Shown: piece by piece, positions 24,496-63,877 of the stretch
Numbering within the stretch: the first letter of the stretch is position 1
How the letters are laid out: the number at the start of each line of letters is the position of its first letter
Origin: Sphingobium sp. Cam5-1
Lineage (GTDB): Bacteria; Pseudomonadota; Alphaproteobacteria; Sphingomonadales; Sphingomonadaceae
DNA length: 64,000 nt
Direction of reading: 5' to 3'
NCBI RefSeq assembly: GCF_015693305.1
Contig: NZ_CP065139.1
Location: 861,501-925,500, forward strand
Notes under the pieces: generated by a model
What the model was told of the DNA's origin: nothing
What the model saw: only the letters and a program-made list of their open reading frames with translations
Databases searched by the model: none
Position numbers and translations under genes: made by a program

Positions 24496-25029
24496 TCAGG
24501 CCGCTTCCCACTCAATCAAATGGCTGATGTCGCTGCGCTGTTCGGGCTTGCGGCCAGCGGTGGCGAGGTGGTGCGAGGTGATCTGCGCGTCGGCGGCCAG
24601 CGGACGGATCATTTCGAACACGCGGTCATATTCGGTGCGCGCGATCTTCCACACGCCATCTTCACGCCGGTAGACGTCGCGGTAAATGGCGCTGCCGATG
24701 GTGTGGCTGCCCCGTTCCACATCGATGAAGATATCCTCCAGATACCACAGCCCCTCGGCGTCATTTTCGCCGGTCAGAGTGATTTCGGGCATGTGGCCGT
24801 GATGCATGGCGACCGCGCCGGAATGGAAGCTGTTCGCAAGGAACTCCAGCATATTGTCACGGCCAGCCAGCCGGACGCGATAGGTGCCGCCACGATAATC
24901 AACGGTCAGGTCTTCCGTGAACAGGGCGCCGAGCAGCGTCAGATCGGCCGTGTCGATTCCCCGGAAATAGCGATGCTTGAGCATCCGGATATCTTCCAGA
25001 TCGCTCAGCTGCTGCACGGTATAAGCCAT
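24496..25029 (-). CDS. BaiE-like NTF2/SnoaL protein, candidate steroid/bile-acid dehydratase
   Basis: A 177-residue NTF2-fold protein. Alignment by eye to bile-acid 7-alpha-dehydratase BaiE finds all four active-site residues: Tyr21 and Asp26 in 'LKHRYFRGID', His76 in 'AMHHGHMPEITL', and Asp99 in 'GLWYLEDIFI' (BaiE Tyr30, Asp35, His83, Asp106). The His-Asp spacing is identical (23). It would eliminate a ring hydroxyl as water. ATG 25029 follows GGAGAGG; a TTG one codon upstream is less likely. It is transcribed toward the TonB receptor. Confidence 0.8.
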   Translation of the reverse strand: MAYTVQQLSDLEDIRMLKHRYFRGIDTADLTLLGALFTEDLTVDYRGGTYRVRLAGRDNMLEFLANSFHSGAVAMHHGHMPEITLTGENDAEGLWYLEDIFIDVERGSHTIGSAIYRDVYRREDGVWKIARTEYDRVFEMIRPLAADAQITSHHLATAGRKPEQRSDISHLIEWEAA

Positions 25030-25206
25030 CAAACCTCTCCATATGTGACGCGATATGCGATTATTATGCGTCCCCTATACCTGATCTGCGTAACAATCTG
25101 CAATGACCACTGCATTATGTCTGGCGAAGGATGGCGCAGATTGAGTATGGGGCCTATCCATGCGATGCGCCCGCTGCGCATTTCTCGAAACTGAAAGGAT
25201 AGGGCC

Positions 25207-33159: not shown

Positions 33160-35244
33160 ATGTCGCAAACAGTCAGCTTCCACACCCACGGCGCGATCGC
33201 CGAAGCGGTGATCGACAATCCCCCGGTCAACGCGACCTCCGCCAGCGTGCGGCAGGGCCTGGCCGAAGCGCTCCGCCAGTTGGAGTCCGATCCCGCCCTC
33301 CAGGCGCTCGTCATCCGTTGCGAAGGCAAGACCTTCATCGCAGGCGCGGACATCAAGGAATTCGGCAAGCCCATGGCCGATCCGGGCCTGGCGCTGGTCA
33401 TGGAAATGATGGACCATTCGACCAAGCCGATCATCGCCGCCGTCCATGGCACAGTGCTGGGCGGCGGTCTCGAAGTCGCGCTCGCCTGCCACTATCGCAT
33501 CGCCGCACCGGGCACGAAATTCGGCTTTCCCGAAGTGAAGCTCGGCCTGATGCCCGGCGGCGGTGGCACGCAGCGCACGCCGCGCCTCGCTGGCCTCGCC
33601 ACCGCGATCAAGCTGGTGACCGAAGGCAACCAGATCAGCACGGATGACGCGCTGAAGTCCAACCTCATCGATGCCGTCGCATCTGGCGGCGACCTCGCAG
33701 CCGAAGCCCGCAGCTTCGCGGAAAAGCTGGTGGCGGAAGGGAAGGGCGCGCGCAGCTCTTCCACGCTCCCCATGCCAGCCGATGATCCGGCCCTGTTCGA
33801 AGAAGCCCGCAAGACCGTCGCCAAAAAGATGCGCGGCCAAACCGCACCCCTGCGCGCGCTCGAAGCCATGCGCCTAGGCTATGAACTGCCCTTCGACGAA
33901 GCCGTTCGCCAGGAACTCGCCATCTTCCGCGAATGCATGAACGGGTCGCAGTCAAAGGCGCTGCGCCACCTCTTCGCCGCCGAACGCGAAGTCGCCCGCA
34001 TCCCCGGCCTCGCGCCCGACACGCTGACCCGCAACATCGAGCGGGTAGGCGTCATCGGCCTCGGCGTCATGGGACGCGGCATCGTCATGGCGGTCGTCAG
34101 CGTCGGCATTCCCGTCATCGCCGTCGGCCTCGACCAACCGAACATCGACGCCGCGATGAGGGCGATCACCAAAATGTGGTCCTCCTCCGTCGCCAAGGGG
34201 AGCATGTCCCAAGAGACGATGGACAAGCGCCTCGCGCTCATCACCACCAGTGCCGATCCCCGCGACCTTTCACCGACGCAGCTGGTGATCGAGGCGGTGA
34301 CCGAGGATCTGGAAACCAAGAAGGCCGTCTTCGCGAAATTGGGCGACGTCACGCCCGCCGGAACCATCCTCGCCTCCAACACCAGCTTCCTCAATATCGA
34401 CACGCTGGCGGAAGCATCGGGGCGGCCCGAAGATGTGTGCGGCATGCACTTCTTCAACCCCGCCAATGTCATGCGCCTGCTGGAAAATGTCCGCGCCGCA
34501 AAGACGGACCCCGAAGTCGTCGCGACGATCATGGCGCTGGGCAAGCGCATCGGCAAATTGCCCGTCCTGTCGGGCGTATGCGACGGTTTCATCGTCAACC
34601 GCATGCTATCCAAGCGCTCCCGCGAGGGCTTCTTCCTTGTCGAGGAGGGCGCAAAGCCCGCCGCCATCGACAAGGTGCTTTTGTCCTATGGCTTCCCCAT
34701 GGGGCCGTTCGCGCTGGGCGATCTCGCCGGGCTGGACGTTCAGGCCGCCGCCCGCAAGGCCCGCGCCGCCACCGCGACGGAGCGCGAATTGCGCGCCGAC
34801 TTCCCCGAACAGATGGTCGCCGCCGGACGCCTCGGGCAAAAGACCGGCTCCGGCTGGTACAGCTATGACGAAAACCGCAAGGCCAGCGCCAACCCGCTGA
34901 CCGACGAAATGATCGCAGCCCATGCGAAGCGCCACGGCCTCAAGCTGCGAGAGGTCGGCGAGGATGAAATCCGCGATCGCCTGCTCTACGCAATGGTCAA
35001 TGAAGGCGCGAAGCTGCTGAGCGAAGGCATCGTGCCGCGCCCGCATGAAATCGACGTCGCGCTGGTGAACGGCCTGGGCTGGCCCAGCTACACCGGCGGC
35101 CCCATGCATTGGGCCGACCAGATCGGCCTCGACAAGCTGCTCGCCACCATCGAGCAATTCCGCGCCGAACAGGGCGACGCCTATTGGACCCCCGCGCCGC
35201 TGCTCGTCCAATATGCGCGCGAGGGCAGGGGCTTTTACGCATGA
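33160..35244 (+). CDS. bifunctional enoyl-CoA hydratase / 3-hydroxyacyl-CoA dehydrogenase
   Basis: A 694-residue trifunctional-alpha type enzyme. The crotonase domain shows '[14 protein letters not shown]' (56-69), '[15 protein letters not shown]' with Glu105, and '[17 protein letters not shown]' with Glu125. The dehydrogenase half starts near residue 295 with '[17 protein letters not shown]', then '[17 protein letters not shown]' with the catalytic His. It hydrates an enoyl-CoA and oxidises the product to 3-ketoacyl-CoA. Its stop overlaps the next start (ATGA), so the operon is translationally coupled. Confidence 0.93.
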
Positions 35245-36443
35245 GCTACGATCCCAACACAAAGACTGCCGACCTGCTCGCCCGCCTGCGCGCCTTCATG
35301 GACGCGCACATCTATCCCAATGAGAAAGCCTATTATGAGGAGGTCGCGACTGGCGACCGCTGGGCGCACGTCACCCTGATCGACAGGCTCAAGCCGCTGG
35401 CGAAGGAAGCAGGCCTCTGGAACCTGTTCCTCCCCGAAAGCACCCATGGCGCTGGCCTGACGAACCTCGAATATGCCCCACTCTGCGAGGAAATGGGCCG
35501 CGTCCACTGGTGCCCCGCCGTGTTCAACTGCGCCGCGCCCGACACCGGCAATATGGAAACGCTCGAACGCTTCGGCACGGAAGAGCATAAGGAACGCTGG
35601 CTGAAACCCATGCTGGCGGGCGAGATGCGCTCCGCCTTTGCCATGACGGAGCCGCAGGTCGCTTCGTCGGACGCGACCAACATTGAAAGCTCGATCGTCC
35701 GCGACGGCGATGATTATGTCATCAACGGCCGCAAATGGTGGATTTCGGGCATGGGGGAAGCGGACTGCGCGCTCATGATCTTCATGGGCAAGACAGACCC
35801 CACAGCACCCAAGCACAAGCAGCAGTCGATGATCCTCGTGCCCCGCGACACGCCCGGCATCACCGTGCTGCGCCCGATGACCGTCCTCGGCTATGACGAT
35901 GCGCCGCACGGCCACATGGAAATCCTCTTCGAGAACGTCCGTGTGCCCGCTTCCAACATGCTGCTCGGCGAAGGACGCGGCTTCGAGATCGCGCAGGCCC
36001 GCCTTGGCCCCGGCCGCATCCATCATTGCATGCGCATGATCGGCATGGCCGAACGCGCGCTCGAAGCCATGTGCCGCCGCGTGAAGAGCCGCGTCGCCTT
36101 CGGCAAGCCGCTTGCCGAGCAGGGCGTCATCATCGAACGCATCGCCAACAGCCGCATCATGATCGATCAGGCGCGGCTCCTGACCCTCCACGCCGCACAT
36201 CGCATGGACACGGTGGGTAACAAAGTGGCGAAGGCGGACATCGCGATGATCAAGGTCGCCGCGCCCAACATGGCCTGCCAGGTCATCGACTGGGCGATGC
36301 AGGCGCACGGCGCGGCAGGCATCAGCCAGGATTTCTTCCTCGCCAGCTACTACGCCCACGCCCGCAAGATCCGCTTCGCCGATGGCCCGGACGAGGTGCA
36401 CCGCCACCAGCTGGGCCGCCTCGAACTCGCCAAATATGACTGA
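35241..36443 (+). CDS. acyl-CoA dehydrogenase, ACAD10/11-like (LvaC-like)
   Basis: A 400-residue acyl-CoA dehydrogenase of the ACAD10/11 branch: '[20 protein letters not shown]' (about 132-151), '[20 protein letters not shown]' and '[21 protein letters not shown]'. ATG 35241 overlaps the preceding stop. It is followed, with an 8-bp overlap, by an APH-type kinase. In human ACAD10/11 and in the Pseudomonas levulinate pathway (LvaA/LvaC), such a pair phosphorylates a 4-hydroxyacyl-CoA and removes the phosphate, letting it enter beta-oxidation. The same logic is proposed here. Confidence 0.9.
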
Positions 36444-37479
36444 CGTCCGCACGCTCGACACCAGCCGCCTTGGCCCATGGCTCCGCGCCCATGTGCCGGG
36501 CGCGGACGGCGAGATCGGTGCCGAGAAATTCGCAGGCGGCCAGTCCAATCCCACCTATCTCCTGTCGGTGGATGGCCAGGCCCGCTTCGTCCTGCGCCGC
36601 AAGCCCGACGGCGTCCTTCTCCCCTCGGCCCATGCCATAGAGCGCGAATATCGCGTCACCGATGCGCTGAAGGACAGCGCCGTCCCCGTCGCCCGCCCGC
36701 TCGCCCTGTGCGAGGACGCCAGCATAGTCGGCACGCCCTTCTTCCTCATGGACTATGCGCAAGGCCGCAACTTCTGGGACGCCCGCCTGCCGGACCTCAC
36801 CCCCGCAGACCGCGCCGCCATCTATGACGAGATGAACCGCGTCCTCGCCGCCCTCCACGCCATCGACCCGGCGCAGGTCGGCCTCGCCGACTATGGCAAG
36901 CCCGGCAATTATTTCGCCCGCCAGATCGCCCGCTGGACCAAACAATATCGCGCCACGCAAACGCAGCAGCTCGACGCGATGGAGCAGCTGATCGACTGGC
37001 TCCCCGCCAACGATCCCGGCCTCGAAGCCAGCCGCATCGTCCACGGCGACTATCGCAACGACAATATGATCTTCGCCGCTGACGAGCCGCGCATCATCGC
37101 CGTCCTAGACTGGGAACTCTCAACCCTCGGCCACCCCCTCGCCGACCTTGCCCAGCATCTGATGGCGTGGCGCGTCCCAAAGGAAGGCTATCGCGGCCTG
37201 TCGGACGCAGACCTCCCCGCACTCGGCATCCCCTCCGAAACCGACTATCTCCAACGCTACGCAGAGCGCAGCGGCGCGGGTCCGATCGACCCCGCCCATT
37301 GGCGCTACGCCCTCGCCTTCGCCATGTTCCGCAACGCCGCCATCCGCCAGGGCGTCTATCACCGCGCGATCAGCGGCAATGCCTCAAGCGAAGCCGCCGC
37401 CATCCACGGCGCCCGTGCCGGAGAAATAGCGGGCCTCGCATGGCGCATCGCCCGCGGGGAAGAGGATGCCCATCTATGA
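36436..37479 (+). CDS. APH-family kinase, candidate hydroxyacyl-CoA kinase (LvaA/ACAD10-like)
   Basis: A 347-residue aminoglycoside-phosphotransferase-fold protein. The catalytic loop is '[12 protein letters not shown]', with Asp205 and Asn210, and the metal-binding Asp225 is in '[18 protein letters not shown]'. An N-terminal '[10 protein letters not shown]' takes the place of the nucleotide loop. The ATG overlaps the ACAD gene by 8 bp and the stop overlaps the next gene by ATGA. This close pairing argues against antibiotic resistance and for phosphorylation of a hydroxyacyl-CoA. Confidence 0.85.
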
Positions 37480-39448: not shown

Positions 39449-39655
39449 ATGAGAGTGGTTGCCAATCTTGCCCAATGTCAGGGGCACGCCCGATGCGAAG
39501 ACCTGTGCCCGGAGGTGTTTTCGACTGACGCCGTCGAAGGCAAAGTCGTCATAGAACAGCCCGAATTTCCCCCGGAGCTTGAGGAAAAAGTCAGGCTAGC
39601 CGTGCGCAATTGCCCCGAAGGTGCACTTCGCATCACAAAGGGGACAGCGGCATGA
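39449..39655 (+). CDS. [3Fe-4S]-type ferredoxin for cytochrome P450
   Basis: A 68-residue ferredoxin. Cysteines at 10, 16 and 55 ('CQGHARCEDLCPEVF' and 'NCPEGAL') match single-cluster [3Fe-4S] ferredoxins that serve P450s; His13 takes the place of a fourth ligand, and an extra Cys20 is present. ATG 39449 follows CAGGAGAG; the frame is open upstream to 39395 without a site. Its stop overlaps the P450 start (ATGA), which strongly implies it is the redox partner. No ferredoxin reductase lies in the window. Confidence 0.9.
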   Translation: MRVVANLAQCQGHARCEDLCPEVFSTDAVEGKVVIEQPEFPPELEEKVRLAVRNCPEGALRITKGTAA

Positions 39656-40869
39656 ACGTCACCTATTTCCCCGCCGCGCCAACCCATGTCCCTGAAGACC
39701 TGATCCGCGATTTCGACTTTTTCGACATGCCTGCCGACGTGTCCGATCCGGTGCAGATCTGGCACGGCCTTATCCAAAAAGGTGCGCCGCCCATCTTCTA
39801 CACGCCGCGCAATGGCGGCCACTGGGTGTTCCTGCGTTACGCCGACATCGCCGAAGCCTATCGCAATCACGAGATTTTCTCGACGCACAAGGCGCAGATT
39901 CCCCCGCTGGAACCCTATCCGGTTCTTCAGCCCAACGGCGTCGATCCGCCACAGCATGATGTGTTCCGCAAATTGCTGGCCCCCATGTTCACGCCGCTAG
40001 CCGTCCGCCGGATGACGGATGGCCTGCAAAGCCGCGCCGAACGGCTCATCTCGGGTTTCGCCGCGCAGGGCGGGTGCGATTTCGTCAAGGATTACGCCGC
40101 CAAATTCCCGACCGGCACCTTCCTTGAACTGTTCGGCCTGCCGGAAGAGCGCCTGCCGGAATTCCTGCGCATCTCCGACACCTTCTTCCGCAGTACCGAC
40201 CCGGACATTCGCGCCGCGAACCTGCTCGAAATCTATGACGTGCTGGAAGAACTGTTCCGCGAGAAAGAGCGCAATCCCGGCAACGACATAGCCTCCACCG
40301 TGGTGCAATCGCGGGACGCGGACGGCAATCCCTTCCCTTGGACCGACATCATCAACTGCGGTTTCCTGCTCTTCGTCGCGGGGCTCGACACGGTCACCAA
40401 CACCATGACCTATGTCTGGCGCTATCTCGCGACATCACCGGACGCCCGGCAGAAGTTTCGCGACAGGCTGGACGATCCGTCCGCCTTCCTCCTCGCGATC
40501 GAGGAACTGATGCGGATCAACGCGGTCTCCAACATCTACCGCCGCATCACCCATGATTGCGAGTTCAAGGGCGTGCAGTTCCGCCGCAACGACCGCGTCG
40601 TCCTGCCCAACACGGTGGCCAATCGCGACCCGAGAATGTTCAACGACCCGCAGACAATCGATCTTGATCGCAAGGTCAATAACCATGTCACCTTCGGCCT
40701 CGGACCGCATCGCTGCATCGGATCGCACCTCGCCAAGCGGGAGATCATGATCTCGCTACAGGAATGGCTGCGGCAAATTCCCGATTTCGAACTGGACCCC
40801 AATCAGGACGCGGGGTCCGTCTTCGGCGGCCCGGTCATGGGCTTCACCTCGCTCAAACTGCGCTGGTGA
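39652..40869 (+). CDS. cytochrome P450 monooxygenase
   Basis: A 405-residue soluble P450. The haem loop is 'FGLGPHRCIGSH' with Cys355, the I-helix oxygen-binding segment is 'FVAGLDTVTNTM', and the K-helix E-x-x-R is in 'IEELMRI'. No membrane anchor is present. It is translationally coupled to the ferredoxin. The family includes steroid and terpene hydroxylases (CYP125/CYP108-like sizes), but the substrate cannot be assigned from sequence. A 10-bp hairpin follows. Confidence 0.94.
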   Translation: MNVTYFPAAPTHVPEDLIRDFDFFDMPADVSDPVQIWHGLIQKGAPPIFYTPRNGGHWVFLRYADIAEAYRNHEIFSTHKAQIPPLEPYPVLQPNGVDPPQHDVFRKLLAPMFTPLAVRRMTDGLQSRAERLISGFAAQGGCDFVKDYAAKFPTGTFLELFGLPEERLPEFLRISDTFFRSTDPDIRAANLLEIYDVLEELFREKERNPGNDIASTVVQSRDADGNPFPWTDIINCGFLLFVAGLDTVTNTMTYVWRYLATSPDARQKFRDRLDDPSAFLLAIEELMRINAVSNIYRRITHDCEFKGVQFRRNDRVVLPNTVANRDPRMFNDPQTIDLDRKVNNHVTFGLGPHRCIGSHLAKREIMISLQEWLRQIPDFELDPNQDAGSVFGGPVMGFTSLKLRW

Positions 40870-41941: not shown

Positions 41942-42811
41942 CTACCGCATCAACGCCCGCCAAGCCCCAGGCGGCCGCCCCGTCTCCCGCCGGAACGCAG
42001 CGCAAAAAGACGGCGCCCCCGCATAGCCCAACGCCCGCGCAACCTCCTCAATCGATCCCTTATCCTCGGTCAGCATCGCCTTCGCCCGATCGATCCGCCG
42101 CCGCCGGATCGCCGCGCCCGGACTGATGCCTGTCGTCTGGTGAAAGCAGCGGATGAAATGATCCCGGCTGATCCCACACCGCTCCGCCATCGCATCGATC
42201 GACGGGGCAGGGCCGGGCGCATCAACCATCGCCAGTGCCACCCGCAGCGCCCGCGCGGATAGCCCGCCCCGCCGTCGCCCCGCGCGCTCCGTCGCCTGCG
42301 CAAGGAACCGCCGGAGATCGAGCAGGATCAGCGACACCAGCGCCTCCCCAATATCCGCACTGTCCTCGCCGGGATGTTCGACCTCCGCCGCCAGCCGCAG
42401 CATCGCCTCCTCAATCGGCGGCGCATGCATGTCAAAACAGGCGCTCAGCGTCGCATCGTCAAAACCGATCCCCGCCAGCGCTGGCGCGATCCGTCTATCC
42501 TCAAAGCGAATGCGGATCGTATCGAACGCGCCCTTCGCGACATGAAATTCCATCGGCACGCCAGCCGGACGCAGCGCCAGCGCCCCCATGCGCGCGAAAG
42601 GACGGCGCGGATCACCCGCCTTCCGCCCCTCCGACCCGGTTAGCAGCCGCGACAGGCCCAGCATCAAAACCGACTGCGGCTCGACCATCTGCACCGTCTC
42701 TTCCCGGACTTCCGGAAAAGCGCATATTTCAACAACCGCCCCATCGACCGCCAGCGATCCGCGCACAAGATCGGCGTTCTGCCGCGCCAGCCGGATCGAA
42801 ATGGCATCCAT
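41942..42811 (-). CDS. AraC-family transcriptional regulator
   Basis: A 289-residue AraC regulator. The C terminus has 'SIDAMAERCGISRDHFIRCFHQTTGISPGAAIRRRRIDRAKAML' and 'IEEVARALGYAGAPSFCAAFRRETGRPPGAWR', the two HTH units. ATG 42811 is used; an in-frame GTG two codons upstream has no better ribosome site. It diverges from the acyl-CoA mutase operon across about 125 bp, so it is the best candidate for control of that operon. Confidence 0.9.
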   Translation of the reverse strand: MDAISIRLARQNADLVRGSLAVDGAVVEICAFPEVREETVQMVEPQSVLMLGLSRLLTGSEGRKAGDPRRPFARMGALALRPAGVPMEFHVAKGAFDTIRIRFEDRRIAPALAGIGFDDATLSACFDMHAPPIEEAMLRLAAEVEHPGEDSADIGEALVSLILLDLRRFLAQATERAGRRRGGLSARALRVALAMVDAPGPAPSIDAMAERCGISRDHFIRCFHQTTGISPGAAIRRRRIDRAKAMLTEDKGSIEEVARALGYAGAPSFCAAFRRETGRPPGAWRALMR

Positions 42812-42936
42812 CACCACCAGTTATCACAAAGCGTGAGAAATTACGAGATAATGCGACAATCATGTGGCATTCTCCCAACGCTCCTTGAGCCTGCTCTCCC
42901 GCACCGGATAGCAATAAAGCCAAGGAGAGTGCCGCC

Positions 42937-44658
42937 ATGAATCGCCCGACCGGACCCATCGTCCCCGCCACCAACGCAATCGCGCAGGAAGAAGCCCGCT
43001 GGCAGCAGGAAACGCGCGGCCCCGCCATCGAAGGGCGACCGGAACGGCGCGACCCCTTCGTCACCCAGGCGCTCAAATGGCCGATCAAGCCGCTCTACAC
43101 GCCCGCCGATCTCGATGCCGTGGGCTTCGACTATAGCGCCGACCTCGGCTTCCCCGGCGAATATCCCTACACCCGCTCGACCCGCCCCAACGGCCACCGC
43201 TCGGACTTTTGGACGATGACCCAGGTCACCGGCTTCGGCAAAGGCGAGGATTGGGCCAAGCGCGCCCGCTACATGCTGGATCAGGGTCTCTCCGGCCTCA
43301 TCCTCGAATATGACCTCGCCACCACCAACGGCTATGACAGCGACGATCCGGTCGTGGAGGGCGAAGTCGGCCGCGCTGGCATGGCGCTCGACAGCCTCGA
43401 AGACCTCGAAAAAGCGTTCGACCTCCCCTTCGACAAGCTCAAATATCTGATGAGCGTCTGCAACGCGCCGCAGCCAGTGAACCTCGCCATGATCATCGCC
43501 GCCCTCGAAAAGAAAGGCGTCGATCCCAAGGACTTCGTGCTGCACATCGTCAACGGCATCCTGATCGAATATACCTGCGTCGGCCGCTACATATACCCGC
43601 CTGAACATGGATTGCGCATCGCCACCGACTGCATAGACCATATCATCCGCAACCACCCCAATTGGGCGCCGATCTCGATCATCTCCGCCCAGCTCCAGCC
43701 CGCCAAGGCGAACCCGGTGCAGGAAATCGCCTATTCGCTCGCCATCGCCTGCGCCCATATCGACGCGGTGCTGGAGCGCGGGCTCGATATCGACACGGTC
43801 GCGCCCTACATCAATCACTTCGTCGTCAATGTGGACATGGATTTCTTCGAAGGCGTCTGCAAGCTGCGCGCCTTCCGCAAATGCTGGGCGCGGTTGATGA
43901 AGGAGCGTTACGGCGCGTCAAAGCCCGAAGCGCTAAAAATCCGCATGATGACCTCGCCCACCACCATCGCGCTGACGCTCCAGCAGCCGCTCAACAATAT
44001 CGCCCGGCTCGGCATCATGGCGACAGCCTGCGCGCTGGGCGGGGCAGGGGAGGCGATGACCACGCCGCTTTATGACGAGGCCCACGCCCTGCCTGCCGAA
44101 AACGCCATCCGCGTTGGCGCCGCGATCCAGCATATCGTCGCCTACGAAACCGGCGTTGCGGAGACGATCGACCCCCTCGCAGGCTCCTACTATGTCGAGA
44201 CCCTCACCAAGCAGATGGAGGATGCCGCCTTCGCCGAAATGGACAAGATCTTCGCCATGGGCGGGGCGCTCAAAGCCATCGAGACCGGCTATATCCAGCG
44301 CGCGCTCGGCCGCGAACAATATGAGCGCAACAAGGACGTAGAGGAAGGCCGCCGCAAATGGGTCGGCGTCAACCACCTCACCCGCGAAGACGAAGAACGC
44401 GAAATCGAAATCTTCCGCCTCGACGACGCGATGGAGGAAGAGCAAATCCGCAAGGTCCGCGACCTGCGCGCCCGCCGAGACCAGCCCGCCGTCGATGCAG
44501 CGCTGGAGAAGGTGCGCGAAGCCGCCCGCACCGGCGCGAACATGGTCCCGCCCTGCCTCGAAGCGGTAAAGCTCTACGCCACGCATGGCGAAATCTGCAA
44601 CGCGATGCGCGACGTCTTCGGCGTCCACAGCGCCGACAGCCAGCTCATGGGGATTTAG
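42937..44658 (+). CDS. divergent B12-dependent acyl-CoA mutase, large subunit
   Basis: A 573-residue TIM-barrel subunit of the methylmalonyl-CoA mutase family ('LATTNGYDSDDPVVEGEVGRAG', 128-148 in outline; 'RYIYPP', 217-222; 'YETGVAETIDPLAGSYYVE'). The C-terminal cobalamin domain is a separate gene, as in isobutyryl- and 2-hydroxyisobutyryl-CoA mutases. By eye, three defining positions differ: MCM Tyr89 aligns with His87, carboxylate-binding Arg207 with Val215, and His244 of 'GYH' with Gln252 ('SAQ'). It is therefore unlikely to use methylmalonyl-CoA, and the substrate is unknown. CAAGGAGAG precedes ATG 42937. Confidence 0.88.
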   Translation: MNRPTGPIVPATNAIAQEEARWQQETRGPAIEGRPERRDPFVTQALKWPIKPLYTPADLDAVGFDYSADLGFPGEYPYTRSTRPNGHRSDFWTMTQVTGFGKGEDWAKRARYMLDQGLSGLILEYDLATTNGYDSDDPVVEGEVGRAGMALDSLEDLEKAFDLPFDKLKYLMSVCNAPQPVNLAMIIAALEKKGVDPKDFVLHIVNGILIEYTCVGRYIYPPEHGLRIATDCIDHIIRNHPNWAPISIISAQLQPAKANPVQEIAYSLAIACAHIDAVLERGLDIDTVAPYINHFVVNVDMDFFEGVCKLRAFRKCWARLMKERYGASKPEALKIRMMTSPTTIALTLQQPLNNIARLGIMATACALGGAGEAMTTPLYDEAHALPAENAIRVGAAIQHIVAYETGVAETIDPLAGSYYVETLTKQMEDAAFAEMDKIFAMGGALKAIETGYIQRALGREQYERNKDVEEGRRKWVGVNHLTREDEEREIEIFRLDDAMEEEQIRKVRDLRARRDQPAVDAALEKVREAARTGANMVPPCLEAVKLYATHGEICNAMRDVFGVHSADSQLMGI

Positions 44659-44659
44659 C

Positions 44660-45085
44660 ATGACCACATTCAAACGCCCCTTGCGCGTCCTGCTCGCAAA
44701 ACTCGGCATGGACACCCACACGGTCGGCGTCACCGTCATCGGCCACGCCCTGCGCGAAGCGGGGATGGAGGTCATCTTCACTGGCCTCAAGCAGACCCCC
44801 GAAATGGTTTGCGCCGCCGCCGTGCAGGAGGATGTGGACGTCGTCGGCATCTCCACCCTATCCGCCGGTCACACCCGCAGCCTGCCCAAGCTCGCTCGCC
44901 TGCTCCGTGAAGCAGGTGCGGGCGACAAGCTGCTCGTCGCGGGCGGCGTCATCCCCGAAGAGGACAAGCCGATCCTTGAGGAAGCAGGCGTCGATCGCAT
45001 CTTCACCATGGGTTCTGACACGCGCGACATCGTCGCCTATCTCGAAAGCTGGTGGGCAGCGCGGCTGGCGGAGGACGCCGCCTGA
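44660..45085 (+). CDS. cobalamin-binding small subunit of the acyl-CoA mutase
   Basis: A 141-residue B12-binding domain. The D-x-H-x-x-G motif is 'MDTHTVG' with Asp18, His20 (lower axial cobalt ligand) and Gly23. 'VDVVGISTLSAGHTRSLPKL' supplies the S-x-L region, and 'LLVAGGVIPEED' supplies the G-G. The start is 1 bp after the stop of the large subunit, and the stop overlaps the MeaB start (TGATG). It matches the HcmB/IcmB arrangement. Confidence 0.94.
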   Translation: MTTFKRPLRVLLAKLGMDTHTVGVTVIGHALREAGMEVIFTGLKQTPEMVCAAAVQEDVDVVGISTLSAGHTRSLPKLARLLREAGAGDKLLVAGGVIPEEDKPILEEAGVDRIFTMGSDTRDIVAYLESWWAARLAEDAA

Positions 45086-46047
45086 TGATGCGAAACCCGG
45101 CGGAGGTTGCCGACCGCCTCCTTGCCGGAGACGTGGCGGCAGGCGCGCGCGCGATCCGCTGGCTGGACGACCGCGACCCGCGCGGCGCGCAGGTGCTTGG
45201 CCTCATCTACCCGCACACCGGCCGCGCCCAGCTGGTCGGCGTCACCGGCCCGCCCGGCGCAGGCAAATCCACCCTCACCGACACGCTCGTCACGCAATGG
45301 CGCAAGCGGGACCAGCGCGTCGCCGTCATCGCCGTCGATCCATCCAGCCCCTTCACCGGAGGCGCCATCCTCGGCGACCGCGTCCGCATGAGCCGCCACG
45401 CGCTCGACCCCGGCGTCTTCATCCGTTCGCTCGGCACGCGGGGCCACGCGGGCGGGCTGTCCCGCTCCACCCATGACGCCTGCCTCGTCTTCGACGCGAT
45501 GGGCTATGACATCATCCTCATCGAAACCGTCGGCGTCGGGCAGGACGAAATCGATGTCGTGAACCTCGCCCACACCACCGTCATCGTCGCGGTGCCCGGC
45601 CTTGGCGATGAAATTCAGGCGGTGAAGGCGGGCCTCATGGAGGCAGGCGACATCTTCGTCGTGAACAAGGCCGACCGCGACGGCTATGACGCCACCCATC
45701 GCCAGATGGAACTGATGCTCCACCTGCGCGCCCAAACCGTCATGGACCAGCGCTGGGACGTGCCCCTCCTACGCGCTGTCGCGGCAAAGGGGGAGGGCGC
45801 GGACGCCATCGTCGACGCCATCGCCGCCCATCGCGCCTTCCTGCAAGAACAAGGGGACTTCATCAGCCGCAGCCGCCTGCGCGCGCGGGAACAGCTCTTC
45901 TCGCTAGTCCGCGACGCCCTCGCATCCCGCGCAATGACCCTGTGCGGCGACGCCATCCTCGATCAGGTAGAGATGCGGCAGCTTGATCCCTACGCCGCCG
46001 CAGAACAAATTGTCGCAGTCCTTCCCGACAAGAGTGCCCCCGCATGA
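45085..46047 (+). CDS. meaB: MeaB/ArgK-type G-protein chaperone of the acyl-CoA mutase
   Basis: A 320-residue P-loop GTPase of the MeaB family, which protects and loads adenosylcobalamin in acyl-CoA mutases. 'LVGVTGPPGAGKSTLTD' is the Walker A, 'IAVDPSSPFTGGAILGDRVRM' is the family signature, 'IETVGVGQDEIDV' contains the Walker B/switch, and 'VVNKADRDG' is the NKxD motif. An ATG also occurs one codon later. Position directly after the cobalamin subunit indicates it serves this mutase. Confidence 0.95.
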   Translation: MMRNPAEVADRLLAGDVAAGARAIRWLDDRDPRGAQVLGLIYPHTGRAQLVGVTGPPGAGKSTLTDTLVTQWRKRDQRVAVIAVDPSSPFTGGAILGDRVRMSRHALDPGVFIRSLGTRGHAGGLSRSTHDACLVFDAMGYDIILIETVGVGQDEIDVVNLAHTTVIVAVPGLGDEIQAVKAGLMEAGDIFVVNKADRDGYDATHRQMELMLHLRAQTVMDQRWDVPLLRAVAAKGEGADAIVDAIAAHRAFLQEQGDFISRSRLRAREQLFSLVRDALASRAMTLCGDAILDQVEMRQLDPYAAAEQIVAVLPDKSAPA

Positions 46048-46661
46048 CCAAGTCCATCTGCGCTCTGGCCCACAAGCCGGGCACCACTCGCGAAGATTTC
46101 CAGCATTATTATGAAGAAAATCACGCTCCGATGGCGATCAGTCATTTCCCCTTCTCTGCTTATGCTCGCAATCACCTCACCGGGGCGCAGCTATTCCGCT
46201 GGGACACGATCAGCGAATTCTGGGCCGATGACATAGAGGCAGCGGCGGCACTCATGGCCGGACCAGTGGGAAAGATCATGGCCGCTGACGAGGAACGCTT
46301 CATGAACCGGCCTCTCATCGCCTCCGCCGGAGTGGAGGAAGTCATCCTTTCCCCTGGAAACCCCGCCGGAAGCGACGGCCGCCGAACAGCCTTGCTCGTT
46401 CAGCATGCCGCCGAAGGCGTCGATCTGCGCTCAGCGGTGATGGCGTGGGCGAAGGGATTCGCTAAGGACATGCCCGGCGTCTCGATCGACTTTACGACCA
46501 ACTGGACCGCCCAAGCCTTTCCAGCAAAGGCCGTCCTGTGGCTGCCGGGATGGCAAGCCCAGGCCGCCATTCCGTACGGTCTTTCCACTCAAGCGCTGTT
46601 GATCCGCCATGTCACAACTCCGCCTTCGCAGTTGCTGGGCGCCCATTCCGCCTCTCGTTAG
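46044..46661 (+). CDS. EthD-like dimeric alpha/beta-barrel protein
   Basis: A 205-residue protein. The N-terminal half has an EthD/ferredoxin-like pattern, 'KPGTTREDFQHYYEENHAPMA', usual in proteins that accompany P450 or ether-degrading systems. The C-terminal half looks like a weaker second copy of the fold. The ATG overlaps the MeaB stop (ATGA), so it belongs to the mutase operon. The function of EthD proteins is unresolved. A tandem-domain reading is tentative. Confidence 0.7.
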   Translation: MTKSICALAHKPGTTREDFQHYYEENHAPMAISHFPFSAYARNHLTGAQLFRWDTISEFWADDIEAAAALMAGPVGKIMAADEERFMNRPLIASAGVEEVILSPGNPAGSDGRRTALLVQHAAEGVDLRSAVMAWAKGFAKDMPGVSIDFTTNWTAQAFPAKAVLWLPGWQAQAAIPYGLSTQALLIRHVTTPPSQLLGAHSASR

Positions 46662-46891: not shown

Positions 46892-49273
46892 ATGAAATCC
46901 ATATTGCTTGCGGGCGTTACCGCAATTTTGGTGCCTTTCTCGGTTTCGGCGAACGCTCAGGAACAAAGCGCCGTTCAGGAACCATCGGCCACTCTCGGTG
47001 ATATCGTCGTGACTGCGCGCCGCTCTGCGGAAACGCTGCAGGACGTGCCTGTCGCCGTTACCGCGCTCAGCGGTGACTTCATCGAACGGCAGAACATCTC
47101 TGATCCGACCGACGTGCCGAACTTCGCGCCGAACATCACGATCGAACAGCAGCCGTCCAGCCTTTCGGCCGCGACCATCTACATTCGCGGCATCGGCAAC
47201 AACGAACCTTCGGCCGTTTCCGAACAGGGCGTGGGCGTCTATCTCGACGGCGTCTACCTCGCCCGTGCGGCCGGTGCCGTGTTCGACCTTATCGATCTGG
47301 AACGGATCGAAGTGCTGCGCGGTCCTCAGGGCACGCTGTTCGGCCGCAACACCATCGGCGGCGCGCTCCAGCTGATCACGAAAAAGCCCGCCAACGACAT
47401 GCATGTCACCGCGAAGGCGGGCTACGGCCGCTTCAACGAATGGTATGCCCGCGCGCGGCTCGATACCGGCTATATTCTGGGCGACGTGCTCAAGGCGTCG
47501 ATCGCCTATCAGCATCGTGAGGGCGACGGCTATGTGAACAATACGCTCACCCCGGCCTCGCAGGACCCCGGTTCGCTCAATGCGGACTCGGTCGCGATCG
47601 GTTTGCAGGCGGATCTGGGCGATCTGACGGTCAATTACAGCTTCGATTATGACAATCGTAAGGGCACGCCTGCCTTCTTCCAGATCGTCGCTGCCACCCC
47701 GCTGGCGCAGGACTATTATTCGCAGTCGCCCAGTTTCGGCGGCGCGCCTTTCCTCGTCAGCCCGGATCGTCAGGGCACCGTTCAGCAGGCGGGCTTCACC
47801 GACCGCAACGGCAATTTCCGCTATGGCAGCAAGACCCGCGTTCAGGGTCATGGCCTGACGCTCAGCTATGAAGCAATTCCCGAGCTGACGCTCAAGTCGA
47901 TCACCGGCTACCGGAAGTTCTTCCAGGACACGATCCTGAACCTGTCGGGTAACGGCGTGCTGCGTGGTCAAGTCGTAGACTTCGACTCACCCACTCTGGT
48001 CTCTGTGCAGGATGTTGTTCCCTACACCGGCAACAATGCGCCGCAGAAGCAGTGGCAGTTCAGCCAAGAATTCCAGGCTCTCGGCAAGGTCGGTGACCTC
48101 AGCTACCTGCTCGGCATGTATTATTTCTACGAAAAATCGTCGGAATATAACCAGCAGGCATTGACGATTCTGGCGCCGGTAGCTGCGCTTGATTTCTATG
48201 GCTTCCCCGCCGGAACTGCGGCAGCCGTAGCGGCAGCCAACCCGGGCCTGGCCACCGTTGGCATCAACGCCACGCCGGTTCAGGCATTCGGCGGCACGTC
48301 ACAGTCGATGGCCCTGTTCGGCCAGGTCAGTTGGAAGCCGTCCTCGCTCGACGATAAGCTGGAAGTCACGCTGGGTGGCCGCCATACCGCCGACGACAAG
48401 ACCATCTATCTGGCCGGTGACGTCTTCCCCGTGCAGCGTGGCCGCCGCAGCTTCGACAACTTCTCCTGGCTGGCATCGGTCAGCTATGAGGTGATGGACG
48501 ATGTCATGGTCTATGGCCGCGTATCGACCGGCTATCGCTCGGGCGGCATCAACCCGCGCGGCGGCAGCATCAACGGCTTCGATCCCGAAAAGGCGACCTC
48601 TTATGAGGCGGGCTTCAAGTCGCAATGGTTCGACAATCGCCTGCGCCTGAACGTCGCTGGCTACATCACCGACTATGACGACCTTCAGGTGCAGCAGTTC
48701 GCCGCAGGCAGCGGCGGCGCCACCTCGCTGATCGTCAATGCGGGCAAGGTGCGCCTGTCGGGCTTCGAAGCGGAACTGACGGCAGCCCCCTTCCGTGGCT
48801 TCCAGATCGACGGTTCGGTCGGTTATGTGAAACATGACTATAAGACCTTCCTCTTCCGCGATCCGGGCACCAACACGGTGGTCGATGTCGCTGACGAAGC
48901 ACGGCCGCTCTACACGCCAAAGTGGAACGTCCATGTCGGCGCTGAATATTCGCATCCCATCGGCGGCGGCGACACGCTCGTCCGTCTGCGTGGCGACTAT
49001 TCCTATCGCACGAAGATCTACTTCAACGCGCTCGACAACACCGCGCCGTTCAACGAACAGATCGTTTCGCCCAGCCAGACCAACGTAAAGGCGCGTCTGT
49101 CGGTCGAAGGCTTCGATCTCGGCGGTGGCAAGCTCGACGTGGGTATCTGGGGCGACAATCTGCTGAACCAGAAGCGGCTGGTTTACGGCATCGACTTCGG
49201 CGCGCTGGGCTTCGCAGGGGCGACGTTCAACAAGCCGACCTCCTACGGCGTGGATGCCAAGATCGCCTTCTGA
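46892..49273 (+). CDS. TonB-dependent outer-membrane receptor
   Basis: A 793-residue receptor. The signal peptide 'MKSILLAGVTAILVPFSVSANA' precedes the TonB-box region 'LGDIVVTARRSAETLQDVPV'. The plug shows 'IYIRGIGNNEPSAVSEQGVG', 'VYLDGVYLARAAG' and 'IEVLRGPQGTLFGRNTIGGAL'. The barrel ends 'TSYGVDAKIAF' with the C-terminal Phe needed for assembly. ATG 46892 follows GGGAGG; the open frame upstream to 46823 would spoil the signal peptide. It may import the compound handled by the neighbouring P450 and mutase genes. Confidence 0.93.
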   Translation: MKSILLAGVTAILVPFSVSANAQEQSAVQEPSATLGDIVVTARRSAETLQDVPVAVTALSGDFIERQNISDPTDVPNFAPNITIEQQPSSLSAATIYIRGIGNNEPSAVSEQGVGVYLDGVYLARAAGAVFDLIDLERIEVLRGPQGTLFGRNTIGGALQLITKKPANDMHVTAKAGYGRFNEWYARARLDTGYILGDVLKASIAYQHREGDGYVNNTLTPASQDPGSLNADSVAIGLQADLGDLTVNYSFDYDNRKGTPAFFQIVAATPLAQDYYSQSPSFGGAPFLVSPDRQGTVQQAGFTDRNGNFRYGSKTRVQGHGLTLSYEAIPELTLKSITGYRKFFQDTILNLSGNGVLRGQVVDFDSPTLVSVQDVVPYTGNNAPQKQWQFSQEFQALGKVGDLSYLLGMYYFYEKSSEYNQQALTILAPVAALDFYGFPAGTAAAVAAANPGLATVGINATPVQAFGGTSQSMALFGQVSWKPSSLDDKLEVTLGGRHTADDKTIYLAGDVFPVQRGRRSFDNFSWLASVSYEVMDDVMVYGRVSTGYRSGGINPRGGSINGFDPEKATSYEAGFKSQWFDNRLRLNVAGYITDYDDLQVQQFAAGSGGATSLIVNAGKVRLSGFEAELTAAPFRGFQIDGSVGYVKHDYKTFLFRDPGTNTVVDVADEARPLYTPKWNVHVGAEYSHPIGGGDTLVRLRGDYSYRTKIYFNALDNTAPFNEQIVSPSQTNVKARLSVEGFDLGGGKLDVGIWGDNLLNQKRLVYGIDFGALGFAGATFNKPTSYGVDAKIAF

Positions 49274-61040: not shown

Positions 61041-62213
61041 TCATCCTCTAGGTTCTCTTGGCATAGCTAATCCGCGTTCGGCGATGATGTTGCGCTGGAT
61101 CTGGTCGGTTCCGGCGTAGATGGTATCGGATCGAGACATGAGGTGCATGGTTGTGAGGGCGCCCATGCGTTCGTCGTTGATGCCTATTTCGCCCTCTTGT
61201 CCCATTACCGCCATGGCGAGGTCGCCAAGCGCGACATGCCAGCGGGACCAGTAGAGTTTGTAGGTGTATGCGGCGCCGGTGAGTTCGGGGTTGGCTTCGC
61301 CGCCTGAGAGCATGCGCAGGGCGTTGTAGCGCATGATCTTGAGCCCGGCATGGGCGGTGGCGATCTTCTGGCGGGTGAGCGGGTCTTGTGCCTTGCCGTT
61401 GGCCTTGGCGATGGCGATGATGTCGTCCAGTTCGTTCCTGAACTGCATCTGCTGGGCGAGGGTGGAGACGCCGCGTTCAAAGCCAAGGAGGGCCATGGCA
61501 ACCTTCCAGCCTTCGCCTTCTTCGCCGATGCGGTCCATGGCGAGGGCTTGCGCTCCATCGAAGAACACCTCGGCAAATTCGGCCTCGCCGGTCATCTGGC
61601 GGATGGGGCGGGGGGTGACCCCGGGCTGGTCCATGGGGACCATGAGGAAGGAGAGGCCCTTGTTGCCGACGCTGCCGGGCTCTGTGCGGGCAACGACGAA
61701 GCACCAGTCGGCGATCGTGCCCATCGAGGTCCAGATCTTCTGCCCGTCGATGATGTACGTATCGCCTTCCAGGCGTGCCTTGGTCTTCACATTGGCCAGG
61801 TCCGATCCTGCGCCGGGTTCAGAATAGCCCTGGCACCAGATCGCCTTGCCGGTGGCGATGTCGGGGAGGAACCGGGCCTTTTGCTCCTCGGTGCCCATGG
61901 CGATCAGCGTCGGCCCGAGCAGTTCGACCCCCAGATGCCCCGCGCGCGGCGGACCCTTGGCTCTGGCATATTCCTCGGCGAAGATGATCTGCTGCGCGAT
62001 CGAGGCGCCGCGCCCGCCCCATTGCTCAGGCCAGCCAATGACGCTCCAGCGCGCCTCACCCAGGGCTGCTTCCCAGGCGCGGCGCTCCTCGACATTGTCG
62101 ACCTGGTTGGTCTGGCCGCGAATGGCCTTGAACGGACCGCTAAGCTGTTCGTTGAGCCAGCTCGCGGCCTCTTGCCGAAAGGCTTTCAATTCAGGGGCGA
62201 AGGCGAGTTGCAT
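61041..62213 (-). CDS. acyl-CoA dehydrogenase
   Basis: A 390-residue full-length acyl-CoA dehydrogenase: 'WPEQWGGRGASIAQQIIFAEEYARAKGP' in the N-terminal domain, 'CQGYSEPGAGSDLANVKTKA' in the middle domain, 'IDGQKIWTSMGTIADWCF', and 'YAGTDQIQRNIIAERGLAMP' at the end. It resembles FadE-type enzymes that act on bulky CoA esters. It starts 3 bp after the thiolase stop, in a minus-strand beta-oxidation operon. Confidence 0.93.
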   Translation of the reverse strand: MQLAFAPELKAFRQEAASWLNEQLSGPFKAIRGQTNQVDNVEERRAWEAALGEARWSVIGWPEQWGGRGASIAQQIIFAEEYARAKGPPRAGHLGVELLGPTLIAMGTEEQKARFLPDIATGKAIWCQGYSEPGAGSDLANVKTKARLEGDTYIIDGQKIWTSMGTIADWCFVVARTEPGSVGNKGLSFLMVPMDQPGVTPRPIRQMTGEAEFAEVFFDGAQALAMDRIGEEGEGWKVAMALLGFERGVSTLAQQMQFRNELDDIIAIAKANGKAQDPLTRQKIATAHAGLKIMRYNALRMLSGGEANPELTGAAYTYKLYWSRWHVALGDLAMAVMGQEGEIGINDERMGALTTMHLMSRSDTIYAGTDQIQRNIIAERGLAMPREPRG

Positions 62214-62216
62214 GGA

Positions 62217-63419
62217 TCAGGCGACCTCGAACAGACCGGCAGCACCCATGCCGCCCGCGACGCACATGGAGACGACCACATATTTGACGCCGCGGCGCTT
62301 GCCTTCGATGAGGGCATGGCCAACCAGGCGCGATCCGGTCATGGCGAAGGGATGGCCAATGGCGATGCCGCCGCCATTGACGTTCAATTTCTCAGGATCG
62401 ATGCCGAGCGTGCGCTGGCAATAGATCGCCTGGTTGGCAAAGGCTTCGTTGATTTCCCACAGGCCGATGTCGTCCATCTTGACCCCGGTGCGTTCCAAGA
62501 GCTTGGGGATGGCGAACACCGGGCCGATGCCCATTTCGTCAGCGCCGCAGCCTGCAACCTGAAAACCCCGATAGATGCCCAGGATAGGGAGCCCTTCCTT
62601 TTGCGCGGTGGCAAGGTCCATGACGACCTGGGCAGACGCGCCGTCGGAGAGCTGGCTGGCGTTACCCGCCGTCACATGCTTGCCTTCCTTGATGACGGTG
62701 CCGTTTTTGAACACGGGCTTCAATTCAGAAAGCTTCTCGTAAGTGGTGCCCGCGCGGATGCCCTCGTCCTTGGTCAGGGTCAGCTCTTCCTTGCCGGTCT
62801 CATTGCCTTCCTTGTCGAACAGGGCTTTCGTGACCGTGATCGGCACGATTTCATCGTCGAACTTGCCCGCTGCCTGGGCGGCGGCGGCGCGCTGCTGCGA
62901 CTGGGCGGCAAAGCGGTCCTGGTCCTCGCGGCTGATGCCATAGCGTTCAGCGACGATCTCGGCGGTCTCGATCATCACCATGTACGCGTTGGGATCGCGC
63001 GCCTTGATGAACTCGGAGCGGTTGCGGAAGGCGGGATAATGTTTGTCGATGGTGAGCGAGACATTCTCCACGCCACCCGAGACGGCGCAGTCGATCTCGT
63101 TGGCGATGATGCCGCGCGCCGCGAACGCCAGCGCGTTCAAGCCCGACGAGCATTTGCGGTCCATCGAAAAGCCGCTGGTGGTGTCGGGGAGGACCGATCC
63201 GTGGACGGTGAGGCGCCCGACATTGTAGCTTTGCGTGTTCCACTGGTTGGCAACGCCCAGATAGACGTCGTCGACGCGGGCGGGATCGATCCCGGCGCGG
63301 GCGATGGCGGCATCGACCACATGGGAGGACATGAACGGCGCTTCGGTGTCGTTGAACGCGCCGCGATAGGCTTTGCCAACGCCAGTGCGGGCGGTGGAGA
63401 TGATGGCTGCTTCACGCAT
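62217..63419 (-). CDS. acetyl-CoA C-acyltransferase (thiolase)
   Basis: A 400-residue thiolase that cleaves 3-ketoacyl-CoA. The nucleophile Cys90 is in '[13 protein letters not shown]', the catalytic His is in '[17 protein letters not shown]', and the second Cys is in '[14 protein letters not shown]'. The ATG at 63419 gives the standard '[17 protein letters not shown]' N terminus; the longer open frame to 63467 is not needed. It lies between the KSI homologue and an acyl-CoA dehydrogenase. Confidence 0.95.
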
Positions 63420-63436
63420 TGAACAATATCCTTGGA

Positions 63437-63877
63437 TTAAAAGCCGTGCATGTTGGTGGGGCCCCAATAGGCGCGCATTTCGACGACCTCATTGGCTTCG
63501 TTGAAGCGGAAGGTGTCGATGACGTCGATGCGCTTGGCCCCGCCATCGAAGTTCAGGTTCACCGAGAAGGGAAAGACGGCATAGTCGCCCGCGACCCGGA
63601 CCGGGCCTTCGAGCTTGAGCTTCGCGCCGGTCTTCATGGACTGTGCGTAGAAGGCGCGGATTGCTTCGCGGCCCTTGTGGATGGGGGAGCCGATCGGGTC
63701 TTCGACGGTTGCATCAGCGGCATAGAGGGCGGCGACCTGGTCGGCGCTGCCTGCTTCGAACGCTGCGACATAGGCGTTGACGGCGGCTTCCATTTTTACA
63801 GGATCGGGCATGGGTCTTGCTCCAGCAGGGGTGGCGAGGAGAGCCAGGACGCAGGCGATGACGGTGCCCCGGCTCAT
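63437..63877 (-). CDS. ketosteroid-isomerase homologue, possibly exported
   Basis: A 146-residue NTF2-fold protein. Tyr36 ('[10 protein letters not shown]'), Asp60 ('TVEDPIGSP') and Asp121 ('VIDTFRFNE') reproduce the Comamonas ketosteroid isomerase triad with identical spacing (24 and 61). The first 22 residues ('[15 protein letters not shown]' core) look like a signal peptide. An ATG at 63811 has a better-placed GGAG and would give a cytoplasmic 124-residue form of family length. The operon also holds a probable MaoC-type protein, a thiolase and an acyl-CoA dehydrogenase. Confidence 0.85.

Follow-up and report, generated by a model that had tools for sequence, protein, structure and literature searches.

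The stretch of DNA analysed here (the window) comprises 64,000 nucleotides of Sphingobium sp. Cam5-1 (contig NZ_CP065139.1, 1,017,897 bases, positions 861,501 to 925,500) and carries an operon for a B12-dependent acyl-CoA mutase in which several characteristic pocket residues are replaced. The operon and its immediate neighbours are arranged as follows (positions in the window):

42937..44658, forward strand: mutase large (substrate-barrel) subunit, 573 amino acids (TIGR00641, 480 bits against a cut-off of 304)
44660..45085, forward strand: cobalamin-binding small subunit (TIGR00640; motifs AKLGMDTHTVG and GGVIP)
45085..46047, forward strand: MeaB-type G-protein chaperone (TIGR00750, 343 bits; Walker motif GPPGAGKST; coordinates match the annotation of Sphingobium sp. 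TomTYG64)
46044..46661, forward strand: EthD-domain (dimeric alpha/beta barrel) protein, fourth gene of the operon, overlapping the end of meaB (PF07110)
41942..42817, reverse strand: AraC-family regulator, divergent from the mutase operon (AraC-type NCBIfam matches, all under curated cut-offs)
46892..49273, forward strand: TonB-dependent receptor, downstream of the operon (annotation in TomTYG64)

The genes for the large subunit, the small subunit and MeaB are nearly gapless and form one operon, and the matches to TIGR00641, TIGR00640 and TIGR00750 uphold the first-pass annotation, which had described a complete mutase operon made of these three genes. The large subunit matches PF01642 with 512 bits, and its nearest solved relative (phmmer against the PDB) is 4r3u, the large subunit of 2-hydroxyisobutyryl-CoA mutase (HCM; E 2e-113). 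Over 11,719 bases around the operon we found 0 differences from a megaplasmid of Sphingobium sp. TomTYG64, where the large subunit is annotated as methylmalonyl-CoA mutase (MCM). A separate, normal MCM frame of 719 amino acids lies elsewhere in the Cam5-1 genome. In enzymes of this kind the cobalamin subunit holds adenosylcobalamin (AdoCbl), which MeaB loads and repairs. Three features of the superfamily are present: a barrel above the curated cut-off, a cobalamin subunit with DxHxxG, its Lys and the GG motif, and an adjoining MeaB. Membership in the B12-dependent acyl-CoA mutase superfamily therefore stands by homology, and the His/Gln pair discussed below is shared by the members compared but is no stated requirement of the superfamily models.

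Residue columns were read from a phmmer alignment to 4r3u and MCM chains, from a MAFFT alignment with references and from printed alignment blocks, all of which agree. The columns are computed; the residue names and roles used for MCM and HCM are general background. We compared 23 family rows (the query, its homolog in S. herbicidovorans MH and 21 further loci) with 40 comparators, namely four PDB-derived references, loci L001 and L025-L053, and six named or plasmid sequences. The named comparators cover two HCM rows, an HCM-like protein, three MCMs and, as pivalyl-CoA mutase (PCM), Xaut_5043; isobutyryl-CoA mutase (ICM) and ethylmalonyl-CoA mutase (ECM) are not included by name. The codons of the changed positions are:

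43225..43227, forward strand: Val97 (MCM Tyr89, HCM Ile90), placed by alignment; Val in 23/23 family rows
43306..43308, forward strand: Glu124 (HCM Asp117; Ala in MCM); Glu in 23/23 family rows, and Asp in 11, Ala in 28 and Leu in 1 of the 40 comparators
43549..43551, forward strand: Val205 (MCM Gln197); Val in 23/23 family rows, Gln in 40/40 comparators
43579..43581, forward strand: Val215 (MCM Arg207); Val in 23/23 family rows, and Arg in 28, Gln in 11 and Asn in 1 of the 40 comparators
43687..43692, forward strand: Ala251-Gln252 (MCM Tyr243-His244); Ala-Gln in 23/23 family rows, with His244 in 40/40 and Tyr243 in 38/40 comparators

Three replacements had been proposed in the first-pass annotation. 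Two of them, Arg207 to Val215 and His244 to Gln252, lie in ungapped, well-anchored stretches of the alignment and hold. The third, Tyr89 to His87, was drawn from the wrong column: Tyr89 aligns with Val97 (local alignment WTIRQY / WTMRQI / WTMTQV), and at the column of His87, where 39 comparators have a letter, that letter is Tyr or Phe in 38. The accompanying statement that known variants keep the histidine is true of each named reference (HCM, the HCM-like protein, the PCM Xaut_5043 and the three MCMs), a set without ICM and ECM. Beyond these sites we identified the changes Gln197 to Val205, Tyr243 to Ala251 and HCM Asp117 to Glu124.

His244 and Gln197 of MCM sit near the thioester carbonyl. 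Both are retained in 40/40 comparators, Xaut_5043 included, and Val at position 205 or Gln at position 252 was found in 0/40. Val97 and Ala251 are not unique to the family, each occurring in one of the 40 comparators; MCM Tyr89 is present in 27 of them, and one more row is an engineered Y89F chain. The changes V97, V215, A251 and Q252 were found in 121/121 sequences (the query and the 120 listed of 7,891 homologs, 80-98% identical) and can therefore be attributed neither to chance nor to decay. In total, the family and the comparators are fixed for different residues at 15 columns, 12 of which lie at MCM positions 164-283 (21 family rows against 39 comparators at thresholds of 95% and 90%, with Xaut_5043, L015 and L022 left out). 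Further examples of such columns are MCM Ser164, Asp199, Lys202 and Arg283.

The family also stands apart in phylogenies. A 56-row tree, with the family represented by the query, 19 loci and three further homologs and with three truncated rows left out, groups it as one clade (100/100 support) on a stem of 2.39 changes per column, and the HCM and MCM rows form other clades. It remained one clade (SH-aLRT 100) in a 60-row quick tree that included Xaut_5043 and Methylibium PM1. There, its position relative to the other branches had a support of 38 and drew a long-branch warning from treekit, and it did not group with the single PCM row, Xaut_5043, whose branch is 3.1 and whose own placement is unsure. 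Neither tree holds a named ICM or ECM row. The separate-clade phylogeny that the first-pass annotation had called for thus places the family outside the HCM and MCM branches, and this is almost certainly a new clade with fixed pocket changes.

The characterized classes compare as follows. Like MCM, the protein has a PF01642 barrel with a B12 domain and a MeaB partner; unlike MCM, its subunits are split and Arg207, Tyr89, His244, Gln197 and Tyr243 are all replaced, so that the diagnostic Tyr89, Arg207 and His244 read Val97, Val215 and Gln252. ICM has Phe and Gln at MCM positions 89 and 207, where the query has Val and Val; the query is also unfused and scores 178 bits against the 1500 of NF045497. 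Like the PCM of Xanthobacter autotrophicus Py2, which we take to be Xaut_5043/5044, it has split subunits and MeaB, a His at the His87 column and a hydrophobic residue at MCM Tyr89; Xaut_5043, however, retains the Gln and the catalytic His and is very remote. HCM (4r3u and the near-identical row of Methylibium PM1) shares the split subunits of about 570 and about 140 amino acids plus MeaB, an aliphatic residue at MCM Tyr89 and an acidic residue at Asp117 (Glu124 in the query). In contrast to HCM, the query has Gln, Val, Val and Ala at the equivalents of the His, Gln197, Gln208 and Tyr243, and it belongs to a separate clade; of the HCM features Ile90, Asp117, Gln208 and clade membership, it has Val97, Glu124, Val215 and a position outside the clade. 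The operons differ as well, a CoA ligase and an adenosyltransferase lying beside the mutase in PM1, where the query has the EthD protein and its relatives often a short-chain dehydrogenase/reductase (SDR). An HCM-type pathway was considered and is not favoured, no CoA ligase or adenosyltransferase being annotated beside the operon.

The likeness to HCM, the closest solved relative, and the Glu124 at its Asp117 position could also mean that the substrate is a branched acyl-CoA of small size, akin to isobutyryl-, 2-hydroxyisobutyryl- or methylmalonyl-CoA, which is freed during steroid breakdown. We regard this as rather improbable: the genome already has the normal 719-amino-acid MCM frame, Arg207, Gln197 and Tyr243 are all replaced, and the HCM-type proteins are a clade of their own whose rows retain the Gln/His pair.

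Around the mutase, the operon is largely conserved. The small subunit directly follows the large subunit in 19/21 loci and MeaB is present in 18/21; L020 and L021 lack both, and L015 lacks a MeaB match. The small subunit of the window and all 19 adjacent ones of the loci retain an unbroken AKLG[ML]DTHTVG motif, and 18/19 have GGVIP. AraC regulator homologs stand beside the operon in 12/21 loci and homologs of the EthD gene follow it in 12/21, an SDR gene lies just upstream in 7/21 (in alpha- and gammaproteobacteria both), a KshA-like oxygenase homolog lies upstream of the mutase in 5/21, and in L003 and L023, too, a TonB-dependent receptor homolog comes after the operon. The gammaproteobacterial loci have few common neighbours beyond AraC, SDR, MeaB, EthD, acyl-CoA dehydrogenase/APH, DUF1214 and sulfotransferase genes, as judged from a scan of selected neighbours with a rough, greedy gene calling. 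Sulfotransferase genes recur around the mutase: in L008, L009 and L014 they lie upstream of it and have DUF1214 genes as neighbours, and in L012 and L019 they are nearby. The window, too, holds genes of both types (5489-6865 and 56520-57608). Locus L020, from a metagenome-assembled genome titled Klebsiella pneumoniae, encodes a 73% identical mutase (10001-11698) beside a GDSL lipase gene; the species label probably reflects a mis-binned contig.

The absence of both His244 and Gln197 from 23/23 family rows raises the question whether the protein has lost catalysis and been retained for some other role. We consider this highly improbable, given the intact cobalamin motif in the 19 adjacent small subunits, the MeaB gene in 18/21 loci and the many invariant barrel residues. 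To judge from the same sequence features, the operon very probably encodes an active B12 mutase.

The wider window identifies the surroundings as a steroid-catabolism island. Its principal features are:

16005..17084, forward strand: KshA-like Rieske oxygenase, putative ortholog of Chol11 Nov2c407 by synteny, as suggested by the spacing (PF19298, 9e-60)
24496..25032, reverse strand: SnoaL/NTF2-like protein, putative ortholog by synteny of Chol11 hsh2, the 7alpha-hydroxysteroid dehydratase (PF13577)
33160..35244, forward strand: FadJ-type enoyl-CoA hydratase / 3-hydroxyacyl-CoA dehydrogenase (PF02737, PF00725, PF00378)
35235..37479, forward strand: acyl-CoA dehydrogenase and APH-type phosphotransferase pair (PF00441, PF01636)
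39652..40869, forward strand: cytochrome P450 (PF00067); the small gene before it is annotated as ferredoxin in S. herbicidovorans MH
61041..63467, reverse strand: acyl-CoA dehydrogenase and thiolase, at the border of the C/D-ring (HIP) cluster; in S. herbicidovorans MH this pair comes first in a stretch that also holds the CoA-transferase pair and the VOC and aldolase genes

The window further holds SDRs, SnoaL proteins and a GMC oxidoreductase. A flavin monooxygenase with FMO-like and Pyr_redox domains (7570-9540) is a possible Baeyer-Villiger enzyme. On the reverse strand at 49602-53742, an outer membrane efflux protein, an MDR-type MFS transporter and an HlyD-type gene (after the annotation of the syntenic stretch of S. 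herbicidovorans MH) possibly export toxic steroid intermediates. Acyl-CoA dehydrogenase and APH-type pairs, 27-28% identical, also follow the operon in Haliea L010 (13182-15844) and in L011; the animal pairs of this type (ACAD10/11) handle 4-hydroxyacyl-CoAs. Within the same contig (G000:C2), matches to an IpdA-like gene and two SnoaL genes recur at 464357-476788 and 925123-937556, the latter starting at about 63.6 kb of the window. The two copies have identical scores, mirrored order and near-identical spacing, which suggests that part of the C/D-ring cluster is duplicated in inverted orientation.

The mutase operon is also present in Sphingobium sp. Chol11 and S. herbicidovorans MH, both of which degrade bile salts. 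The Chol11 genome (G385) has KshA matches at 42.6, 66.2 and 76.2 kb of scaffold C9, a spacing as for Nov2c407, 430 and 440. Its mutase, at 15.2-16.9 kb, would correspond to about Nov2c382, a label interpolated rather than annotated. Its SnoaL match at 34.7 kb fits hsh2, which is Nov2c400 in Table 1 of PMC8399759; the PF13577 matches behind this synteny are G385:C9:34670-35050 in Chol11 and G000:C2:886134-886514 in the window's own genome. In S. herbicidovorans MH the mutase (large-subunit gene B6S01_RS16405) is found at 375.9 kb, and 14 kb separate the operon from where the C/D-ring cluster begins to show; the genes annotated there, at 392-414 kb, are those for acyl-CoA dehydrogenase, thiolase, a CoA-transferase pair, VOC, hydrolase, acetaldehyde dehydrogenase and aldolase. 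According to PMC8399759, Chol11, S. herbicidovorans MH, N. aromaticivorans F199 and C. tardaugens are degraders via the Delta4,6 variant. The first-pass annotation's derivation of the substrate from a polycyclic compound degraded here is supported to this extent: the KshA-like oxygenase, the Hsh2 ortholog assigned by synteny and the edge of the C/D-ring cluster point to steroids.

We also asked how the mutase is distributed relative to steroid genes, with an IpdA-like gene as the indicator. The IpdA query is closest to PDB entries 6co6/6co9 (E 6e-82), named probable CoA-transferase alpha subunit, which we take to be IpdA; glutaconate CoA-transferase was a far weaker match (2e-28). A family sample of 298 Sphingomonadaceae genomes (GTDB) was searched at E <= 1e-200 for the mutase and E <= 1e-80 for IpdA. 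The mutase was found in 7/298 genomes (one partial match) and the ipdA-like gene in 41/298, all seven carriers being among the 41 (hypergeometric P = 6e-7; counted by genus, 4/4 within 23/96, P = 0.003). The gene was also present in 14/14 carrier genomes searched (13 of the genomes of the 21 loci plus the window's own, the other eight being left out), with a best E of 5e-96 or better. In a phylum sample it occurred in 8/398 genomes, the window's genome included. The family-sample and 14-carrier counts overlap (judged by contig coordinates, G526 is G386 and G479 is G389).

These counts also bear on the possibility that the substrate is a non-steroid polycyclic, for instance the CoA ester of a terpenoid or triterpenoid bearing a gem-dimethyl group or quaternary carbon, and that the steroid link is just a by-product of an abundance of catabolic islands in the carrier genomes. 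In favour of this, the operon moves as a unit, the gammaproteobacterial neighbours examined are mostly not of steroid type, and related tomato-soil isolates are described as degrading plant saponins (PMC10653915). Against this, the ipdA-like gene is present in 14/14 carriers versus 8/398 genomes of the phylum sample, and the sphingomonad neighbours are steroid-type genes; we hold this explanation to be improbable. From the island location and the genome association together, we infer with high confidence a role in steroid catabolism.

Which part of the steroid is the target is a less settled matter. Our best explanation, held tentatively and with somewhat less than even confidence, is that the operon encodes an adenosylcobalamin-dependent steroid acyl-CoA mutase whose substrate is most likely an alpha-methyl-branched CoA ester of the side chain. 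PMC8399759 and PMC12175502 describe the steps that follow Scd4AB in sphingomonad side-chain degradation as unknown. The former lists scd4A/B, bsa and sclA of Chol11 as Nov2c221, 222, 227 and 230, and gives counterparts of Shy1, Sal1, Sad, StdA2, Scd2AB, Shy2 and Sal2 as absent in this strain. We located the side-chain cluster of Chol11 at G385:C6 (L105), with two acyl-CoA dehydrogenases, an amidase, a KshA_C match, an amidohydrolase and an AMP-ligase in the expected order. The corresponding cluster of S. vermicomposti (L012/L106) is 95% (Scd4A), 79% (Scd4B) and 88% (amidase) identical to that of Chol11, and its ligase 87% to the copy in the window's genome. This scd4AB/bsa/sclA cluster shares the strand of the mutase and stops 6.2 kb short of it; an AraC gene, an SDR and other open reading frames lie in between. 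As side-chain marker we used the Nov2c229-type amidohydrolase (label interpolated), which lies at most 40 kb from the mutase in G388 and G389. It is present in 38/298 genomes of the family sample, 32 of which are ipdA-positive, and in all seven carriers.

Several observations weigh against assigning the mutase to the side chain. We had expected the mutase to track the scd4AB/sclA cluster, which was not borne out once ipdA was taken into account: among the 298 genomes the marker adds no significant association given ipdA (P = 0.15), and only 7/32 genomes with both ipdA and marker carry the mutase, 25/32 being without it. Of the 14 carriers, three lack the marker and G396 matches it just weakly and in part. 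The Chol11 assembly places operon and side-chain cluster on different scaffolds, and in the window's genome they share a contig at distant positions (114.9 kb vs 904 kb). Our partial lists of carriers name neither N. aromaticivorans F199 nor C. tardaugens, which is a warning rather than a test, since the 21-locus list omitted S. herbicidovorans too. For the next side-chain step in C. tardaugens, a MaoC-type hydratase has been proposed (PMC12882949). As regards the steroid link itself, the IpdA query was taken from a mutase carrier locus (L016), and the carriers are related and partly shared between samples, the window's genome being in each. In view of the marker results, the side chain is kept as leading hypothesis only.

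The same data are compatible with a steroid mutase acting on a CoA ester derived from the nucleus (C/D or D ring), for example at the quaternary alpha carbon C13 with methyl C18 in the manner of pivalyl-CoA mutase. Both in the window and in S. herbicidovorans MH, the operon has the KshA/hsh2 block on one side and the C/D-ring cluster on the other, an ipdA-like gene is found about 7 kb downstream of the mutase in L016, and the ipdA-like gene is present in 14/14 carriers compared with 11/14, one of them weak, for the side-chain marker. However, the C/D-ring table of Chol11 (Table 1 of PMC8399759) has candidates for nearly all steps and no skeletal mutase, and 34/41 ipdA-positive genomes of the sample are without the mutase. 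We therefore consider a nucleus-derived substrate unlikely. In sum, steroid catabolism is well supported, the side chain is plausible and a C22 ester is a hypothesis.

For the side-chain substrate, a reaction can be outlined, the reaction type being inferred from the family. Acyl-CoA mutases proceed by homolysis of AdoCbl, hydrogen abstraction, 1,2-shift of the thioester and hydrogen return. The substrate would be an alpha-methyl-branched C22 steroid acyl-CoA, possibly C20-hydroxylated, as formed after the first turn of side-chain beta-oxidation. Co-C homolysis would generate an adenosyl radical that abstracts hydrogen from the group adjoining the thioester-bearing carbon; the CoA-thioester would then migrate to the neighbouring carbon, and hydrogen would be returned. 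With the thioester transferred from C20 to C21, the chain would become linear and open to further beta-oxidation; an SDR gene is found immediately upstream in 7/21 relatives. This C22 substrate is possible and still doubtful.

Because the acid-binding Arg, the Tyr residues at MCM 89 and 243 and the Gln/His pair are lost and Glu124 is gained, a bulky, largely hydrophobic, non-dicarboxylic substrate is expected. The loss of Arg207 makes the CoA ester of a dicarboxylic acid an improbable substrate, and the exchange of Tyr89, Tyr243 and Gln197 for Val, Ala and Val probably yields a roomier, more hydrophobic pocket. Some of the contact with the carbonyl may now be made by Gln252, and Glu124, which has the position of HCM Asp117, may interact with a hydroxyl group. 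Since no comparator has lost both carbonyl-binding residues, a normal rearrangement cannot be taken for granted, which again counts against the proposed reaction. A structure predicted from the family alignment had a mean pLDDT of 62 and was used for none of these considerations. The earlier suggestion of a new substrate, possibly a branched acyl-CoA, is partly supported: a new substrate is what a pocket altered at several contacts, and fixed across a deep clade, most naturally suggests.

The proposed enzyme would do the same overall job, shortening a branched steroid side chain, as Shy1, Sal1, Sad and Sal2 of Pseudomonas, Comamonas and partly Rhodococcus. Those are aldolases, hydratases and a dehydrogenase working without B12, and are given as absent in Chol11 (PMC8399759). 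The EthD protein, the fourth gene of the operon, belongs to the same fold class as Hsh3, the EthD-type 7beta-hydroxysteroid dehydratase of Chol11 (PMC12175502). It was rejected as an Hsh3 ortholog: it is just 30% identical over 99 amino acids (E 0.04) to the EthD gene of Chol11 that lies closest to where Hsh3 is expected and is tentatively assigned to it. A literature search for a B12-dependent or skeletal mutase in steroid or bile-acid degradation returned none among the matches listed, and an earlier mention is possible. The 'mutase' mentioned for C. tardaugens in the available portions of PMC6895838 and PMC7793797 is a propionate-pathway enzyme, and the word was not found in PMC12175502, PMC12882949, PMC8044976 and PMC10653915.

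We conclude that these B12 acyl-CoA mutases form a real and conserved family that is deeply set apart and is tied to steroid catabolism. A conserved clade without the thioester-binding pair, which is otherwise exceptionless among the mutases compared, bears on the control of radical rearrangements and on enzyme engineering. Some sphingomonads and marine gammaproteobacteria could conceivably linearise the alpha-methyl-branched C22 side chain by a radical 1,2-thioester shift and not by the aldolase route, an idea we advance with reserve. Through its location in a steroid island, the mutase is a testable candidate for the stretch of sphingomonad steroid degradation published as unknown, and it may perform an unknown step in the breakdown of bile acids and related steroids.

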